In this document: positions 1 through 59,746 of the stretch, piece by piece | Layout of the letters: every line of letters starts with the position of its first letter | Numbering within the stretch: position 1 is the stretch's first letter | Source: Acidimicrobiia bacterium | GTDB taxonomy: Bacteria > Actinomycetota > Acidimicrobiia > Acidimicrobiales > Poriferisodalaceae | DNA length: 64,000 bases | Assembly (NCBI GenBank): GCA_022827265.1 | Contig: JAJDTF010000018.1 | Span: 1 to 64,000 of the forward strand | Direction of reading: 5' to 3' | Program-made: the position numbers and the translations under genes | The notes under the pieces: generated by a model | What the model was told of the DNA's origin: nothing | The model's database searches: none | Seen by the model: only the letters and a program-made list of their open reading frames with translations

Positions 1-787
1 CGTCGGTGTAGATGATGCCGGTGGGGTCTTCGAGCGGGGGTCCCTTGCCCTGCGATTCGATGATGTCAGCGAGCGTGACAGGACCCGGCTCGTACAGGTG
101 TGACTCGCCCGGCCGCGAGGTGGGCAGCCAAGCGATGATGATGGCCGATTCGTAGCTCACCGTTACGAGACGGCGCAGGTGGCGAATCAGGTTGAACGGC
201 TCGTCTGCCCAGTCGCGCCAGCCGTTGGGATCGTCGATGATGCCTGAAGCCTTGTCGTGCTTGACGCGGAGGCTGTCGATGGCCCATTGCAGCGGGGTGC
301 GCCCCGAGACGGTGTAGTGCGTTGTCTCGACTGGAATTCCGACGAGGCGGCAACGGCTATTCACCAAGAGCACAGTGCGGTCTTCGCTGCCGTCAGAGCG
401 CTTGCCCCAGCGCATCCGACCCTCGATCCGGTAGGCGCTGCCGTCGGCATCACCCTCGTCCGGCTCGCCATCCACGAGGCACTGCACCGGGTACTCGTCG
501 ACGGTTTCGTAGCCGATGTGGAGGTCCATCAGCTTGCGCCCAGCCGCCCGGAAGGGCTCGAAATCGTCGGCCAGCGGGATGCGCGGCAGGTTGCGCTGCA
601 GGTCGTGCTTGTAGTCCATCCGCCATTCCGGCGAGTGCATGACGCCGTAGAGGTACTCCCAGATGTCGTCTTTGGAGATGTCGGTGCCGTACTTGGCTTG
701 GAACTGCTCCAATGCCCAGTCGCTGACGTTGTCCGTTTCGGCCGCTTGTTCATCGCCGGGCATTCGCAGATTGAGCGTTTCAGTCAT
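1..787 (-). CDS. C-terminal target-recognition part of a type ISP restriction enzyme, separate ORF, cut by left edge
   Basis: The frame is open from an ATG at 787 to the window edge (262 codons visible). It matches what is expected for the last part of a type ISP specificity domain: a SDWALEQF segment, KDDIWEYLYGVMHSPEWR, a NLPRIPLADDF stretch and DLHIGYETVDEYP. In typical type ISP enzymes this is continuous with the helicase-methyltransferase polypeptide. Here it is a separate ORF whose ATG overlaps the TGA of the preceding mini-ORF (ATGA). The ribosome-binding sequence before the ATG is weak, so translation would most likely depend on coupling. It may instead be the tail of a frameshifted gene. 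Confidence 0.75.
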   Translation of the reverse strand, partial: MTETLNLRMPGDEQAAETDNVSDWALEQFQAKYGTDISKDDIWEYLYGVMHSPEWRMDYKHDLQRNLPRIPLADDFEPFRAAGRKLMDLHIGYETVDEYPVQCLVDGEPDEGDADGSAYRIEGRMRWGKRSDGSEDRTVLLVNSRCRLVGIPVETTHYTVSGRTPLQWAIDSLRVKHDKASGIIDDPNGWRDWADEPFNLIRHLRRLVTVSYESAIIIAWLPTSRPGESHLYEPGPVTLADIIESQGKGPPLEDPTGIIYTD

Positions 788-897
788 GGCTTTCGCTTGC
801 GTAGAGCGTCGCGTCCTGCCAGGTCCGAGGCACGCATAACCAGCAGTGTCCCAGGCGACAGAACGGCGAGTGTCGGTCGAGTCGTCTGCGTGGTCAT
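784..897 (-). CDS. 37-codon mini-ORF carrying the most diverged TRD module (module 4)
   Basis: This short ORF runs from the ATG at 897, which overlaps the stop of the preceding frame as ATGA, to the TGA at 784, which overlaps the next ATG in the same way. Read upstream of its ATG, the frame gives SPLEAIL, the same lead-in as the other modules (E-A/T-I-L/M). The rest (LAV...PGTLLVM...RKRKP) is only loosely like the other modules. It could be a fourth copy that has drifted, or non-coding sequence between two real segments. Confidence that it is translated is low. Confidence 0.35.
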   Translation of the reverse strand: MTTQTTRPTLAVLSPGTLLVMRASDLAGRDALRKRKP

Positions 898-1019
898 GAG
901 GATGGCTTCGAGCGGGGAAGTGCCCGGCTCTGCTGGCCAGGACCCAGCAGGTGCAGGTCGGGAAGCCAACTCGTCGCCAGCGTCCCGAACAACGCCATGT
1001 TGGAGGGCGCGCTCAGCAT
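894..1019 (-). CDS. 41-codon ORF carrying TRD module 3
   Basis: The ATG at 1019 has a good Shine-Dalgarno (GGAGG, 5 nt spacing) and lies 4 nt upstream of the stop of the main frame (ATGCTGA overlap). The product carries SNMALFGTLATSWLPDL, then GQQSRALPR, the conserved type ISP specificity motif (F-x2-LAT-x3-PDL-x4-G-x-QQ-x-RALPR). The same frame is also open upstream all the way into the CTCCG tract at 1256-1314. This module could therefore be reached by coupled reinitiation, or by a change of repeat number that puts the helicase-methyltransferase into this frame. Confidence 0.5.
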   Translation of the reverse strand: MLSAPSNMALFGTLATSWLPDLHLLGPGQQSRALPRSKPSS

Positions 1020-4000
1020 GATTGCCTCCATCGTGGCAGCGCCCGCGTCTGTTGCGATCCCTTGATCGAAGCGATGTCGGGCATCGTGTCGGTCGCCAGT
1101 GCCTGAAATGTCATGTTCGATGCGCCTGAAATCAAGATCGTCTCCGGGGAATGACTCGCGCGGGCTGGTTGGTTCCTGTCGCGCAGAGGTCGGCGAGGCA
1201 GTCGGTTGCCAATGTTCCGAATACTGCCCGATTGTTCGGCGATGCGATGCAGATGCTCCGCTCCGCTCCGCTCCGCTCCGCTCCGCTCCGCTCCGCTCCG
1301 CTCCGCTCCGCTCCCAGCGTCCATAGCAGAAACGTCAATAGCGGGCGCGGATTGCGCAAGCAGATCGCTTACGGCTTTCGCCTGGGAGACAATTCGGTGG
1401 TCCTCATACAGCCAGAGCTTGGTAAATGGCCGGTACAGCACTTCGCGGATTCGGCCATCTTCGAATTCGATTTCGATGTCGCGCTTGAGCGAGTTCTTCA
1501 GCGTGTGAGTCCACTTGATGCTCTCAAGCTCGTCGTTAGCGGTCACGTCCTCGAAGGATGCTCCCCGCTTAATCGCTCGACGTGCACGTTCGTAGGCACT
1601 TATGAGTGCCCGAGTCTTGGCGACCAGAGATTCACGACTGAATGCGTACATGTAGAAGTCGCAGTTCGTTTTTGCGCCGAGGGCATGCGCTTCTATGATC
1701 GACTGATTGCTCGAAACTCCTTTGCCGGTTTCACATACCGGCAACAGCTCGCTGAATGACCCGTCTGTGAGATTCACCCAGTCGTGGGCGTCATTGACTG
1801 GCACTACCTCGAACTGATCGCTAGTGACATCGCCGAGTTCGGTCAGCCATGCGAGTTTCGCGTCGCGACCCGAGTTCAATGGAGTAGTTGCGTAGTGGAG
1901 CACCGCTGGCCGAGCTAGGTCTTTGTCAGTGTTGCGGACAAGGACTGTGACTTGCACACCCTGGCGCGAACTCTGACCAAAAACTTTGTCGCCCTCCTGT
2001 TTCCACTCGTCCTTCGACTTCGTCGCATCGCCCAAGAGATTCACGACATATATGTCCGTGAATTCATCCCGCAGCGAAGACCGCATCCCCGTGAGCGATG
2101 GCGCATTCGAAAGCGAATTGGGATGCACGAAAGCGACGATGCCTGCGCGGCGTTGTTCGCGGGCAGGGGTGTCGAGTCGGTCACAGGCCCAGCGGAACGA
2201 TTCGACGTAGAGGTTGCCTGAAGACGGCCCTGCACCTCGGCCAGTGACCTCGCGGTGCCTGCGGCCGTAGGTATCGCGCACTCGCTGCTCGATTTCGGGA
2301 TACGAGGGCCGAGGGTTGTCGTCGCCTGACGATTTCTGACCAGCTGACCAAGGTGGATTGCCGATGATGACTTGGATAGGGAGTTCGTTCTGCTGTCGGG
2401 CGCGGGCCGAGTTGTAACCGATCGTTCCCGTTCCGGGCAGGCTTGCGGGGTCGTGGGAGAACGTGTCGGTGAGCACGATACCGCTGAATGGTTCGTAGCT
2501 ACCGGTGCGCTCCCGGTAGCCCTCTTCGATCTTGATGGCGGCCAAGTAGTAGGCGAGCAGCACGATCTCGTTGGCGTGGATCTCTTGGACGCTGCCGCCC
2601 GGTACCAACGGGTTGTGCGTGTTGACGAACTTGCGCTCCAAGTCTTCGTCTGCGATCAGTGGCTCGCCGTCGCTGTTCTTCTGGGTGAGCAGACGGTTGA
2701 TGAACGTGCCCGTGCCCGTGAAGGGGTCCAAGATGTGGACATCTTTCGAGGTCAATCCTCGTCCGAACTCTTGGCGCAGCACAGCGTCGACCGACCGCAG
2801 CATGAAGTCGACGAGTTCCACAGGCGTGTAGACGATCCCCAGCCGAGTGATCTCGGCGGGCATGGCCTCCTTGAAAAACGACTCGTACACCTCCAGCATG
2901 ATCTTGAGTCGGGCATCGGAGTCGGCCGCGCCAGAGAGGCGGTTGCGGACGCTGTCGTAGAACCGGTCCAATGCGACCGTCTCGTCGCGAAGCCGGATGT
3001 CGGCAGCCTTGAACTCGTCAAGCAATTCGTTCAAGGCGGCGGAGATCGGGTTGCGGTCGGCGAAACCGCTGCCTGCGAAGAGCGCATCGAAGACGGGCAT
3101 CGTGACCACATGCTGTGCGACGAGCACCGCAAGGTCGCCAGACGGCAAGCTTCCGCCGATGGTGGCTTCCATCTGGTCGCCGAAGCGCTCGAACTTGGCG
3201 GCCAAGTCAGGGTTGGTCCCGACAGCGGTCCGCACATGCTCAGTGATGGTGCCGGTGATCCGCGCCACCTCACGGCCCCAGCGGTCCCAGTACTGACGAT
3301 CGCCGCAGGCGGCCACCAGCCGTGACGCAATGGCGTGCTCGAAGGGCAGACGTTGCTGGGTCACCTTGCCGTCGATGTCGCCGCTGCCGTCCTGCTCGCA
3401 TTCGCACTCGGCGTCGGCCCGACCGCACGTGCTGCACACGCCGCTCGGCAGGATGCTGATGGGCAGCCGCCCTGTCAGATCGGCTGTGTTGATCGCGACG
3501 TCAAGGCGTTCGTCGTGTGAGCGCAGGGCTTTGAGGACCTTCCAAACGGCCTTGAAGTCGGAGCCCGACAAGACTTGGTCGTCGAGCAGGCTTGCGCCGG
3601 AGGGAACCACCACTGGCAGGATCACGTAGCCGACATCTTTGTGCTCGGCGCGCCGCATCACGCGGCCGACGGCCTGTATGACGTCGATCTGTGACTGCTT
3701 CGGTTCGAGGAAGATCACGGCGTCCAATGCCGGCACGTCGATGCCTTCGGTGAGACAGCGGGCGTTGGTCACGATGCGGCAGGCGCCGTCGGGATCGCCT
3801 TGTCGCAGCCATGCAATTGTGTCGGCCCGTTCGAGCGCGTTCTTCGAGCCGTCGACGTGGCGTACGTCGCAGTCGAGCAGTTCGGCCCTATCGCCTGCCG
3901 CCGTCCGACCATGCACCGCAGCAGCCACTGCCTCGACGACGGGGTTCCAGTACCTCTCCACCAGTTGGGAGTTGCGGATTCGGTTGGTGAAGGCGATGAC

Positions 4001-5503
4001 TCGCTGGGCAGCGTCCTGCGGGTTGACGGCGCCCGTGACACGGCCCTCAGCGGTGGTGGTAGTGGGATCGGCCAAGCCGTCCCAGCAGCCAGCGAAGCGG
4101 ACTGCTTCGTGGATGCTGAATGGCCGATCGTCGTCGATCACGATGCTGTCGTAGGCATCGAGCACCGGATTCTCGGCCACCGCGATGACCAGCACTTTGT
4201 AGTCGGTGAGGTGGCCGCCCTCGACAGCGTCGCCGAACGACATGCGGTACAGCTCCGGCCCGTAGATGCTCGGATCGTCCATGGAGAAGACGTCGAAGTC
4301 GCGCTCGTGCTCATCGGCTCGGCGCCTGGCTGCCTCGGTGTACACGCGAGGCGTCGCCGTCATATAGAGGCGCTTGTGGGCACGCACGCGCTCAGGGTTG
4401 TGAATGAAGGAGTACGGGGTGATCGTTCGACTGTCTGCCTTGCCCTTCTTCGGTGTCTTCGTGTCCTCGATGCCGGTGGTGCGGTGAGCCTCGTCGCAGA
4501 GCACGAGATTGAAGGGGGGAACTTGGGTGTCCGTGCCGTCTCCAGCCTGCGCGTCAGCGATGAGGCTGAGCGATTGGTAGGTGCAGAACACGACGGTCAT
4601 CGCGTCCGAATCGCTCATGGCTAGCTGCGCTGCGATGCGCTGCGGATCAGTGGTGACCGGCATAGCCAACTCGGCCAGCGGCGCATCCTCGGCTGCGTGT
4701 CCGGCGCGAGTATCGGAGCACACGCCGATGTAACGATGCGCAATGTCGGGATTTCGCTGGCGTGCCCATTCGCGCATCGTCTGGTTCATCAGGGCGATTG
4801 AGGGCACCAAGTACAGGACCCGCCCGCCGACGCCGGCCTGCTGTTCGGCAATCCACAGCGAGACGACCGACTTGCCTGTTCCGCAGGGCAGTACGAGTCG
4901 TCCGCGGTCTCCCGCGGCGAGCCCGTCAAGCACCTTCGCTGTCGCCTCAACCTGAAACGGCTTGGGCGTATGGCGCGGCTGGGGCGTGAAGCGCAACTCG
5001 GTCGGGTCGTCGAGGCACTCGTCCCAGTTGATCGGCCACGACTCGAGGTCGCTGCGGTGCAGCACCTCGCACCGCGGCGATGCCTGTTCGACCATCGTGC
5101 GCGCTTGAGCGGTCATCGGCGACGTCAGCACGAGCAGGCGTGCGGAGAACGCCGAGCCCGACGATGCCGAGATGAACGAGTCGACCTCGGCCTTGCTGAT
5201 TCGACCTTCGATGTGCGCTTTGGTCTGGATCGCGCACAGTCCTCCGCCTGCCTCGGGGGTCTGCTCGGCGACGAGGTCGATGCCGACATCGGCCCCATAG
5301 CCATGGGCCTCGCGGTCGGGCCATTCCATCCAGCGCCAAACGTGCTTGAAGCGCCGGGGACCATAGAGGTCCGGGTGCCGTGCCAGAGCAGCTTGCATCA
5401 GCCTCTCGAACGCGCTGCCGCGGGCCTGAGGCGTGTCATAACGCTCGCTGAGCATTGCCAAGAGATTGGCTTGCTCCGTCGTTGACGTTCGAGTCGATGC
5501 CAT
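1013..5503 (-). CDS. Type ISP restriction-modification enzyme: nuclease, helicase and N6-adenine methyltransferase, with frame-switched specificity end
   Basis: This is a single-chain ATP-dependent restriction-modification enzyme that translocates on DNA. An Mrr-like nuclease lies at about residues 30-150 (GID at 74-76, QTK at 93-95). A superfamily 2 helicase follows (Walker A GTGKS at 208-212, then DEAH). The methyltransferase has DPFTGTGTF near residue 920 and NPPW near 1047. The specificity region starts with LYRPFTKLWLYEDHR and then enters a CGGAG repeat. In the present repeat count the frame reaches module 2 (SNMTFQALATDTMPDI) and stops at 1013 with no further C-terminus. The ATG at 5503 was chosen because the conserved part begins there; the open frame extends to 5746 but runs through another ORF. 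The remaining C-terminal domain is in another frame downstream (1-787). Confidence 0.9.
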   Translation of the reverse strand: MASTRTSTTEQANLLAMLSERYDTPQARGSAFERLMQAALARHPDLYGPRRFKHVWRWMEWPDREAHGYGADVGIDLVAEQTPEAGGGLCAIQTKAHIEGRISKAEVDSFISASSGSAFSARLLVLTSPMTAQARTMVEQASPRCEVLHRSDLESWPINWDECLDDPTELRFTPQPRHTPKPFQVEATAKVLDGLAAGDRGRLVLPCGTGKSVVSLWIAEQQAGVGGRVLYLVPSIALMNQTMREWARQRNPDIAHRYIGVCSDTRAGHAAEDAPLAELAMPVTTDPQRIAAQLAMSDSDAMTVVFCTYQSLSLIADAQAGDGTDTQVPPFNLVLCDEAHRTTGIEDTKTPKKGKADSRTITPYSFIHNPERVRAHKRLYMTATPRVYTEAARRRADEHERDFDVFSMDDPSIYGPELYRMSFGDAVEGGHLTDYKVLVIAVAENPVLDAYDSIVIDDDRPFSIHEAVRFAGCWDGLADPTTTTAEGRVTGAVNPQDAAQRVIAFTNRIRNSQLVERYWNPVVEAVAAAVHGRTAAGDRAELLDCDVRHVDGSKNALERADTIAWLRQGDPDGACRIVTNARCLTEGIDVPALDAVIFLEPKQSQIDVIQAVGRVMRRAEHKDVGYVILPVVVPSGASLLDDQVLSGSDFKAVWKVLKALRSHDERLDVAINTADLTGRLPISILPSGVCSTCGRADAECECEQDGSGDIDGKVTQQRLPFEHAIASRLVAACGDRQYWDRWGREVARITGTITEHVRTAVGTNPDLAAKFERFGDQMEATIGGSLPSGDLAVLVAQHVVTMPVFDALFAGSGFADRNPISAALNELLDEFKAADIRLRDETVALDRFYDSVRNRLSGAADSDARLKIMLEVYESFFKEAMPAEITRLGIVYTPVELVDFMLRSVDAVLRQEFGRGLTSKDVHILDPFTGTGTFINRLLTQKNSDGEPLIADEDLERKFVNTHNPLVPGGSVQEIHANEIVLLAYYLAAIKIEEGYRERTGSYEPFSGIVLTDTFSHDPASLPGTGTIGYNSARARQQNELPIQVIIGNPPWSAGQKSSGDDNPRPSYPEIEQRVRDTYGRRHREVTGRGAGPSSGNLYVESFRWACDRLDTPAREQRRAGIVAFVHPNSLSNAPSLTGMRSSLRDEFTDIYVVNLLGDATKSKDEWKQEGDKVFGQSSRQGVQVTVLVRNTDKDLARPAVLHYATTPLNSGRDAKLAWLTELGDVTSDQFEVVPVNDAHDWVNLTDGSFSELLPVCETGKGVSSNQSIIEAHALGAKTNCDFYMYAFSRESLVAKTRALISAYERARRAIKRGASFEDVTANDELESIKWTHTLKNSLKRDIEIEFEDGRIREVLYRPFTKLWLYEDHRIVSQAKAVSDLLAQSAPAIDVSAMDAGSGAERSGAERSGAERSGAEHLHRIAEQSGSIRNIGNRLPRRPLRDRNQPARASHSPETILISGASNMTFQALATDTMPDIASIKGSQQTRALPRWRQSC
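1256..1314. repeat. Pentanucleotide tandem repeat (CTCCG)11 plus CTCC inside the type ISP gene
   Basis: Eleven perfect CTCCG units (CGGAG on the coding strand) are followed by a partial unit. They encode a repeating G-A-E-R-S pentapeptide. Because the unit is 5 bp, gain or loss of one copy shifts the downstream frame. All three frames are open on the downstream side, and each reaches a different specificity module before stopping (stops at 1132, 1013 and 894). This is the layout of a phase-variable simple-sequence repeat. The coding strand also presents GGAG repeatedly, which resembles ribosome-binding sequence. Confidence 0.9.
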
Positions 5504-5648
5504 CGACCGATTCACGCCACTCGCGATCCTGCACCCACGTGCCGCACAGTACCGGCCTGTCCGGCGAGCAGCCACGGCGAGCGGCCTCCGCGTCGCTGAC
5601 CAGTGTCTGGACGAGCGTTTCATCGTGGGGCAAGCCGGGGGCAGCATG

Positions 5649-5849
5649 TCACTGTTGCCTGCGGTCGGAATCGGCCTCCGGGGGACTTGTGCGGGATTCC
5701 TGCCGGTAGGTGGCGGCGCCACCGGCCGAGAGTGCGGCAAACGCAATGTCTGCCGTCACGTCGTCTTCGACGAGTCGGTCGAGCGCTTCCTGCTCCTCGG
5801 CCTCGTCCCCCGACAGCAGCACGGCCCAGAGATCGTCGACAAATCCCAC
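5649..5849 (-). CDS. Small hypothetical protein upstream of the type ISP gene, with an in-frame TGA
   Basis: The GTG-start ORF of 66 codons gives an acidic, soluble-looking product (GFVDDLWAVLLSGDEAEEQE). The same frame continues beyond the TGA at 5649 down to 5436 with protein-like sequence (LVQTLVSDAEAARRG, GTWVQDREWRESVDG) and overlaps the start of the type ISP gene. It may be one gene interrupted by a nonsense codon, or two small ORFs. No family is recognised. An AT-rich promoter-like stretch lies directly upstream, so this is probably the first gene of the type ISP operon. Confidence 0.35.
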   Translation of the reverse strand: MGFVDDLWAVLLSGDEAEEQEALDRLVEDDVTADIAFAALSAGGAATYRQESRTSPPEADSDRRQQ

Positions 5850-5974: not shown

Positions 5975-6724
5975 ATGTGCGGGAGGTTCGTCTCCGCGGC
6001 CAGTCTCGAGCAGGTGGCGGCATACTTCGACACGCCATTGCCGGGCTTCGACGCACCCCGCAGCTACAACGTGGCACCCACTGCCGACATCGTGGCCGTG
6101 GTCGGCAACGACGATGCCCGCCGGATCGAGACGTTCCGGTGGGGTCTCGTGCCAGCCTGGTCCAACGAACCCACGAAGGGCCCGCCGCTGTTCAATGCCC
6201 GGTCTGAGACAGCGGCAACGAAGAACTCGTTCCGTGGCGCGTTCAAGCGGCGCCGCTGCATTATTCCTGCCGACGGGTTCTACGAATGGCCCAAAGCCCC
6301 GAAAAGGACGAGCCGCGACGACCGACCGCTGCCGCACTACATCACCCGCGCCGACGGCGCCATGCTCGCCATGGCGGGCCTGTGGGAACGCTGGACGCCG
6401 CGGCCAGCCGACGATGCAGCGGAGGGAGCGGACGCAGATGTCCCCGTCGGCCCGCCCGAGGCCCTTCATTCAGCCACGGTGCTGACCACCGCAGCGAACA
6501 GCTTCATGACGCCGATTCATGACCGCATGCCGGTGCTGCTGGAACGCTCGCAGTGGGAAGCCTGGCTCGACCCCGTCAACGACGACACCGGCGGGCTGTC
6601 GGCCATGTGCGTGCCCGCCGACGAGGGCATGCTGCGCTCGCACCGGGTGGGCCGAGAGGTGGGCAACGTCCGCAATCGCGACGCGAGCCTCATCGAGCCG
6701 GTTGAATCGGATCAGCTCTTCTAG
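5975..6724 (+). CDS. SRAP-domain protein (HMCES/YedK family), abasic-site crosslinking
   Basis: The family covalently caps abasic sites in single-stranded DNA through the N-terminal cysteine left after removal of Met1. The protein starts MCGRF, giving Cys2, and has the other conserved parts: SYNVAPT, FRWGLVPAW, NARSETA, the glutamate in GFYEW, and TTAANSFMTPIHDRMP with the active-site histidine. At 249 aa it has the usual length. It stands alone between the type ISP operon and a convergent HIT gene. Confidence 0.93.
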   Translation: MCGRFVSAASLEQVAAYFDTPLPGFDAPRSYNVAPTADIVAVVGNDDARRIETFRWGLVPAWSNEPTKGPPLFNARSETAATKNSFRGAFKRRRCIIPADGFYEWPKAPKRTSRDDRPLPHYITRADGAMLAMAGLWERWTPRPADDAAEGADADVPVGPPEALHSATVLTTAANSFMTPIHDRMPVLLERSQWEAWLDPVNDDTGGLSAMCVPADEGMLRSHRVGREVGNVRNRDASLIEPVESDQLF

Positions 6725-59518: not shown

Positions 59519-59652
59519 CCTGAGGCGGAGCCGTGGCCCGAGCGGCCCGTGAGCGGAGCGAACAAGAGCGGGTTGCCTGAGGCGGAGCCGTGGCCCGAGC
59601 GGCCCGTGAGCGGAGCGAACAAGAGCGGGTTGCCTGAGGCGGAGCCGTGGCC
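59519..59652. repeat. Dispersed intergenic repeat, tandem 57-bp copies
   Basis: Two full copies and a partial third copy of a 57-bp unit whose core is GCCCGAGCGGCCCGTGAGCG, ending GAGCGAACAAGAGCGGG; the same core is at 14129 and 15541. It fills the gap between the divergent oxidoreductase and ferredoxin genes. Being 19 codons long it is open in one frame, but no gene is supported. Confidence 0.85.
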
Positions 59653-59746
59653 GGCGCGGCGTTCAGCCGCGCTAGCTTCGGGCCATCGGGCGCCCCGCGG
59701 CGCCCCGCCGATACTCGGCCCCAGCGGCCTGCAGGGAGGAATGCAC

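Follow-up and report, generated by a model that had tools for sequence, protein, structure and literature searches.

The window, by which we mean the whole 64,000-nucleotide stretch analysed here, forms the start of contig C39 in a 3.8-Mb genome of 163 contigs, and the close relatives identified by sequence are Acidimicrobiia metagenome assemblies. At its beginning, a type ISP restriction-methylation gene runs into a pentanucleotide repeat that is followed by homologous modules in successive reading frames, which raises the question of whether the repeat selects among specificity elements or the gene is a broken one. With a probability of roughly 85%, we consider the locus to be a phase-variable type ISP system, in which the frame leaving the repeat is the address of a specificity element. 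The features are summarized in Table 1.

The ORF encodes, in order, an Mrr nuclease, an SF2 helicase, an ISP coupler, an N6-adenine methylase (NPPW) and the first part of the TRD, after which come the tract, an off-frame read of module 1 and module 2. Although the ORF mechanically begins with the TTG at 5746, an ATG near 5503 is more likely to be the start of the gene. The gene matched Mrr_cat_2, ResIII, Helicase_C and ISP_coupler in Pfam and aligned with LlaBIII (E = 3.4e-212, NPPW conserved); an NCBIfam search gave nothing beyond weak helicase matches. The nuclease, the SF2 helicase, the coupler and the gamma N6-adenine methylase are thus in one chain, as in type ISP enzymes. The entire specificity domain is not in one polypeptide: the Type_ISP_C profile is split, with positions 2-101 in this ORF and positions 165-341 in a separate one, which makes the window enzyme a split derivative of type ISP and not a strict single-polypeptide enzyme. 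Beside the restriction gene is an ORF beginning MCGRF (5975-6724), which may encode an SRAP/YedK-type protein, and far from it (59519-59660) the window has a 57-nt G+C-rich repeat in two and a half copies that are 97% alike.

Table 1. Features of the window, layouts of the related same-genus loci and stand-alone C-terminal genes
Locus	Feature	Position	Strand	Remarks
Window	Separate ORF, rest of TRD (core helices and guide; Type_ISP_C 165-341)	2..787	(-)	Starts in ATGA overlap; contig end cuts ORF
Window	Module 4, diverged type D relative (MTTQTTRPTLAVLSPGTLLVMRASDLAGRDALRKRKP*)	784..897	(-)	PDL lost
Window	Module 3, type C (AIMLSAPSNMALFGTLATSWLPDLHLLGPGQQSRALPRSKPSS*)	894..1025	(-)	Read when n = 2 mod 3
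Window	Module 2, type B (TILISGASNMTFQALATDTMPDIASIKGSQQTRALPRWRQSC*)	1013..1141	(-)	Read when n = 0 mod 3, assembled state
Window	Module 1, type A (SICIASPNNRAVFGTLATDCLADLCATGTNQPARVIPRRRS*)	1132..1257	(-)	Read when n = 1 mod 3
Window	Tract (GGAGC)x12, unit 5 nt	1255..1314	(-)	60 nt, perfect copies; forward strand GCTCC
Window	LlaGI Loop V equivalent (HRIVSQAKA...)	1372..1399 (approximate limits)	(-)	Constant part just 5' of tract
Window	Type ISP restriction-methylation ORF as assembled	1013..5746	(-)	Carries module 2
L003	Array			ACCG x19, three modules
L106 (same place as L005)	Array			GA tract, three modules
L006	Array			Poly-C, three modules
L007	Array			Poly-C, two modules, poly-C, three modules
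L008	Array			AG tract, three modules
L100	Array			Several poly-C tracts, three modules
L004	Array			Sequence ends within AG tract
G417	Stand-alone C-terminal (guide) gene	C144:14309-14959	Opposite to array-bearing gene	
G286	Stand-alone C-terminal (guide) gene	C10:20422-21063	Opposite to array-bearing gene	
G184	Stand-alone C-terminal (guide) gene	C32:10041-10688	Opposite to array-bearing gene	

On the coding strand the tract follows the motif YRPFTKLWLYEDHRIVSQ, and genome-wide there is no second such tract. The initial annotation had counted 11 copies of CTCCG; the tract itself was confirmed, but the perfect copies number 12. As in repeat-driven phase-variable restriction systems, it is a long perfect repeat inside a gene with a unit not divisible by three, and each GGAGC unit gained or lost shifts the frame downstream. 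The three minus-strand frames leaving the tract, which had been described as open to the end of module 1, 2 or 3, are indeed open over 120, 237 and 357 nt; their stops (1134, 1015 and 896) fall just past modules 1, 2 and 3, respectively. When repeat counts from 9 to 16 were translated, modules 2, 1 and 3 came up in strict rotation for n = 0, 1 and 2 (mod 3), and with the 12 assembled copies the gene carries module 2. The anatomy thus predicts the choice of module by repeat number that had been proposed.

The starts of modules 1, 2 and 3 are separated by 116 and 116 nt, in agreement with the annotated spacing, and the step of 2 mod 3 was found in all 43 tract-free junctions of the 18 arrays of two to seven modules scored here (L018 and L137 being the same contig). 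NTGA is used in 39 of these 43 junctions, with the stop lying inside the codons with which the next module begins (A-I-L/M-I), and the N is most often C (CTGA, 17/43). The overlap therefore serves primarily to place a stop within the opening codons of the next module, and is not generally a start: the overlaps annotated in the window (TTGA, ATGCTGA, ATGA and ATGA) are present, but their role as starts did not hold in general. Because of the CTGA junctions and of the C-terminal gene, which is often elsewhere, we rejected the idea that the overlaps serve mainly to couple the translation of all modules. The fourth module, which is related to the third one of L003 but has diverged, sits before the C-terminal ORF, cannot be reached from the tract without re-initiation and gets no score from the module HMM; it is probably a decayed module or a short linker ORF.

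The modules match the region of LlaGI and LlaBIII with the TRD beta-hairpin and Loop VI. In a composite of the window pieces aligned to the solved structures, a module corresponds to the hairpin (1347-1358) and Loop VI (1365-1374) of LlaGI, and the equivalents of helix H and Loop V are upstream of the tract. The LlaGI numbering was taken as the 5ffj chain index plus 164, with which R1286, N1327, R1329, H1368, G1372 and Q1373 land on the correct letters. In LlaGI the base pair at +3 is read by H1368, G1372 and Q1373, and a different base at +3 is recognised by the equivalent residue of LlaBIII, N1360 (PMC4872093). The residue at the position of H1368 is C in module 1, A in module 2 and H in module 3; therefore, the switch is predicted to alter the target base at +3, perhaps together with a neighbouring position. 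A predicted structure of the assembled form with module 2 (pLDDT 73.6) matched LlaBIII and LlaGI. In this model of the single chain, the tract and the off-frame read were disordered (pLDDT 28-45), and module 2 formed three strands with moderate confidence (pLDDT 60-72).

The rest of the TRD, including the guide, which in LlaGI contacts only the DNA backbone, is encoded by the separate C-terminal gene. The initial annotation had proposed that coupling supplies this last domain, and a C-terminal gene adjoining the array in five loci (the window, L003, L106, L008 and L142) is consistent with this. Elsewhere, however, the gene is 0.3-0.9 kb downstream of the array (L019, L139 and L146), upstream of it (L006, L007, L100, L138 and L140), on the opposite strand (three genomes, Table 1) or on a different contig (G436); in G234 it was looked for and not found. 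Wherever it is located it is separate, and in the scored arrays it is never fused to a module. This variable position suggests that the product acts as a separate subunit and that coupling would be at most a local convenience.

Taken together, the switch may work as follows. Replication slippage in living populations would change the number of 5-nt units, and the ribosome would enter the array in one of its three frames, reading the earlier modules off-frame as an inert linker. One 40-residue module would then be decoded in register, up to the stop at NTGA where the codons of the following module begin. This module would supply the TRD beta-hairpin and Loop VI, i.e. the +3 readers in LlaGI and LlaBIII, and would assemble with the separately encoded C-terminal subunit, which would complete the TRD. 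The targets of restriction and methylation would thus change together, at the position or positions read by Loop VI. Larger arrays, in which one frame runs on to a second or third tract, would form a decision tree with up to seven modules, in some cases with an OFF branch.

The same layout was found in eight further loci from six same-genus genomes and in eleven other genomes of the class. When 395 genomes of the class were searched with the module profile, the window and ten others matched, all with at least two tandem modules; L019 is the eleventh array-bearing genome, beyond these ten. The class relatives therefore have arrays with tracts, and not the single in-frame module without a repeat that had been named as counter-evidence. 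In a phylum-wide sample of 396 genomes, the profile had no match outside the window's own genome; the profile is therefore specific to the class, and arrays that are more distant would escape it. Assembly errors at the junctions, the other objection raised at annotation, were rejected, because the layout is common to many independent assemblies, in one of which (L138) the array is inside a 3.0-Mb contig. Among related arrays the modules are kept and the tract is changed (GGAGC x12, ACCG x19, GA, CA/AC, poly-C, poly-G), with units of 1, 2, 4 or 5 nt and never 3. The repeat length also differs between close relatives (GA 7.5 in L018 vs GA 20 in L019, in closely similar arrays), and the assembled states among genomes include M1, M2, M3, M5 and OFF. 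A terminal tract always gives access to three modules, one per frame. In earlier tracts, one frame continues without a stop as far as the next tract, and one or two modules are reached in the others; in the first tracts of L138, L141 and L143, one frame stops within 24-30 nt. In larger arrays two or three tracts are linked in series, most clearly in L139, which has AC14, two modules, G11, two modules, G13 and three modules (seven modules of seven types).

Some of the observations could also be expected from decay, the alternative given in the initial annotation, in which a once-normal type ISP gene was broken by tandem duplication and frameshift and residual homology persists in other frames. 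Module 4 has diverged and lost its PDL, and some array copies do decay, as in the same-genus L102, from which most of the methylase is gone. However, the modules are conserved in their own frames across families: orthologous modules (module 4 left out) differed at 21, 11 and 67 sites at codon positions 1, 2 and 3 of the module's own frame, so that the purifying selection to be looked for was found in each module frame, and all same-type module pairs had an identity of 54% in their own frame vs 33% and 30% in the other frames. The off-frames are also open, with no stop in the 1845 codons required to be open and 62 stops in 1813 matched codons free of this requirement. With a null that keeps the amino acids and redraws the synonymous codons, both off-frames of the window alone were open in 4.5% of trials; at high G+C content, an individual array is fairly likely to have open off-frames. 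The product over 16 arrays was 3.8e-19, although some of these arrays are not independent, L006 being closely related to L007 and L018 to L019. Moreover, nearly all modules within an array are of different types. Eight module types recur, differing in Loop VI, and same-type duplicates within an array were seen once vs 15.7 expected (minimum 7 in 20,000 permutations); the identity between same-type modules of different arrays (62%) exceeded that between different types within an array (41%). As the methylase and helicase motifs are intact in nearly all copies and the layout recurs in the class, we regard decay as extremely improbable.

A tract that is a mere on/off switch, beside silent cassettes that recombine or convert into an expressed position, would account for the occurrence of the same module types in different order among genomes and for the resemblance of L006 to L007 minus the stretch between its two poly-C tracts. 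Recombination does therefore reshape the arrays over evolution. Yet no expressed copy exists apart from the array, all frames leaving the last tract lead to a module, and the off-frames are kept open, for which cassettes have no need; such a system is thus very unlikely. Slippage of the RNA polymerase or the ribosome at the tract, by which a single DNA sequence would yield several forms simultaneously, could occur in the many arrays that have homopolymers of 9-19 C or G. Tracts with 4- and 5-nt units are poor slippage sites for either, however, and these are the units in the window, L003, L142 and the proteobacterial arrays; the trait common to all units is a frame change by DNA slippage. We consider this explanation unlikely, and retain the reading of a phase-variable system addressed by frame.

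Simpler versions are present in cultured Acinetobacter, Sphingomonas, Gluconacetobacter and Komagataeibacter (Acinetobacter tjernbergiae DSM 14971, Sphingomonas sp. Leaf32, Gluconacetobacter johannae LMG 21312 and Komagataeibacter oboediens NCIB 8034). In 64 of 69 complete comparators the frame continues unbroken through the C-terminal half, and five have no C-terminal half in frame (three without a tract and two with one). A tract at the array position was found in five loci of the comparator set, one of which, L047, ends in its tract. In L075, L089, L048 and L088, the first module comes before the tract and one or two follow it in other frames, the remaining frame being open straight into the C-terminal ORF; the Komagataeibacter plasmid pKOB1 (L167, AGGAC x49) has the same layout. 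In the non-fusion states of these five loci, both modules would share one chain. The null probability of the open off-frame was 0.0002 for L088, a gene of 38% G+C, and 0.04 to 0.20 for the other proteobacterial loci. In a model of the L088 fusion form (pLDDT 74.6), the first module was folded, the C-terminal half was well folded (mostly above 90), and the off-frame read of the later modules (residues 611-721) was disordered (pLDDT mostly 20-35), as expected if off-frame reads serve as a linker. Seven plasmid-borne type ISP genes (L163-L166 and L168-L170) are ordinary single-module genes without a tract, and eight other Acinetobacter ISP genes have no array-type tract, with modules scored in seven of them.

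Repeats were also noticed at other places. The same-genus helicase-type paralogues L097-L099, L101 and L103-L105 have no modules; near two of these restriction genes are homopolymers (poly-C 12 at L101 819-831 and poly-G 13 at L105 1450-1463), suggesting repeat-driven variation of other defence genes. In L106 (G004:C5, plus-strand 4365-4410), poly-C runs of 20 and 19 lie in an insertion inside the methylase domain, beside a short N gap, and are possibly an extra on/off tract.

If the proposed switch is true, three to seven restriction specificities are held in a few hundred bases and are switched by slippage, without recombinases or whole gene copies. Annotation may label such genes as frameshifted or split. 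The natural sets of Loop VI modules on one scaffold would provide a test bed for the type ISP reading of base +3 and for specificity engineering, which was called unaccomplished in the LlaGI structural paper (PMC4872093), and the cultured carriers of the simpler form make the switch testable now.

The window enzyme resembles LlaGI and LlaBIII in its order of nuclease, helicase, coupler, methylase and TRD and in the alignment of its module with the TRD hairpin and Loop VI (PMC4872093), but the known ISP enzymes have one chain, one Loop VI and no repeat. Two-state specificity switches driven by repeats are already known. In the type IIG enzymes Hpy99XIV (JHP1272) and HpyAXVI (HP1353-HP1354) of H. 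pylori, a homopolymer close to the 3' end controls the presence of a C-terminal piece that resembles part of the TRD, and two recognised base pairs change, as determined by SMRT sequencing (PMC3936762). The modules likewise are alternative C-terminal pieces homologous to part of the TRD, and Hpy99XIV is like the proteobacterial form in that both pieces are in one chain, where part of its TRD appears to give way to the added piece. These enzymes, however, have two states with one extra domain on an existing TRD, without three frames, nested specificity tracts or a split TRD. In the type I NgoAV, the length of a poly-G in hsdS alters specificity via truncation or fusion of hsdS1 and hsdS2 (PMC9577141), whereas the arrays would choose by frame among homologous modules. 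In Helicobacter canadensis and gonococcus, a 3' repeat with three frames leads to three C-termini (PMC2823697, PMC5320596), but these are short tails or fusions and were not reported as homologous functional modules. The addressing of three or more homologous modules by reading frame appears to be new. We think it probable that it represents a new kind of switch, which in chained arrays such as L139 (three tracts, seven modules) would become a many-valued specificity dial based on slippage only, and of which the proteobacterial form (L088, L075, L089, L048 and L167) arose separately or spread. SpnD39III and other shuffling type I hsdS systems (PMC4190663) also obtain several methylation specificities from one locus; they do so by DNA rearrangement, whereas the arrays would use repeat slippage and frame.
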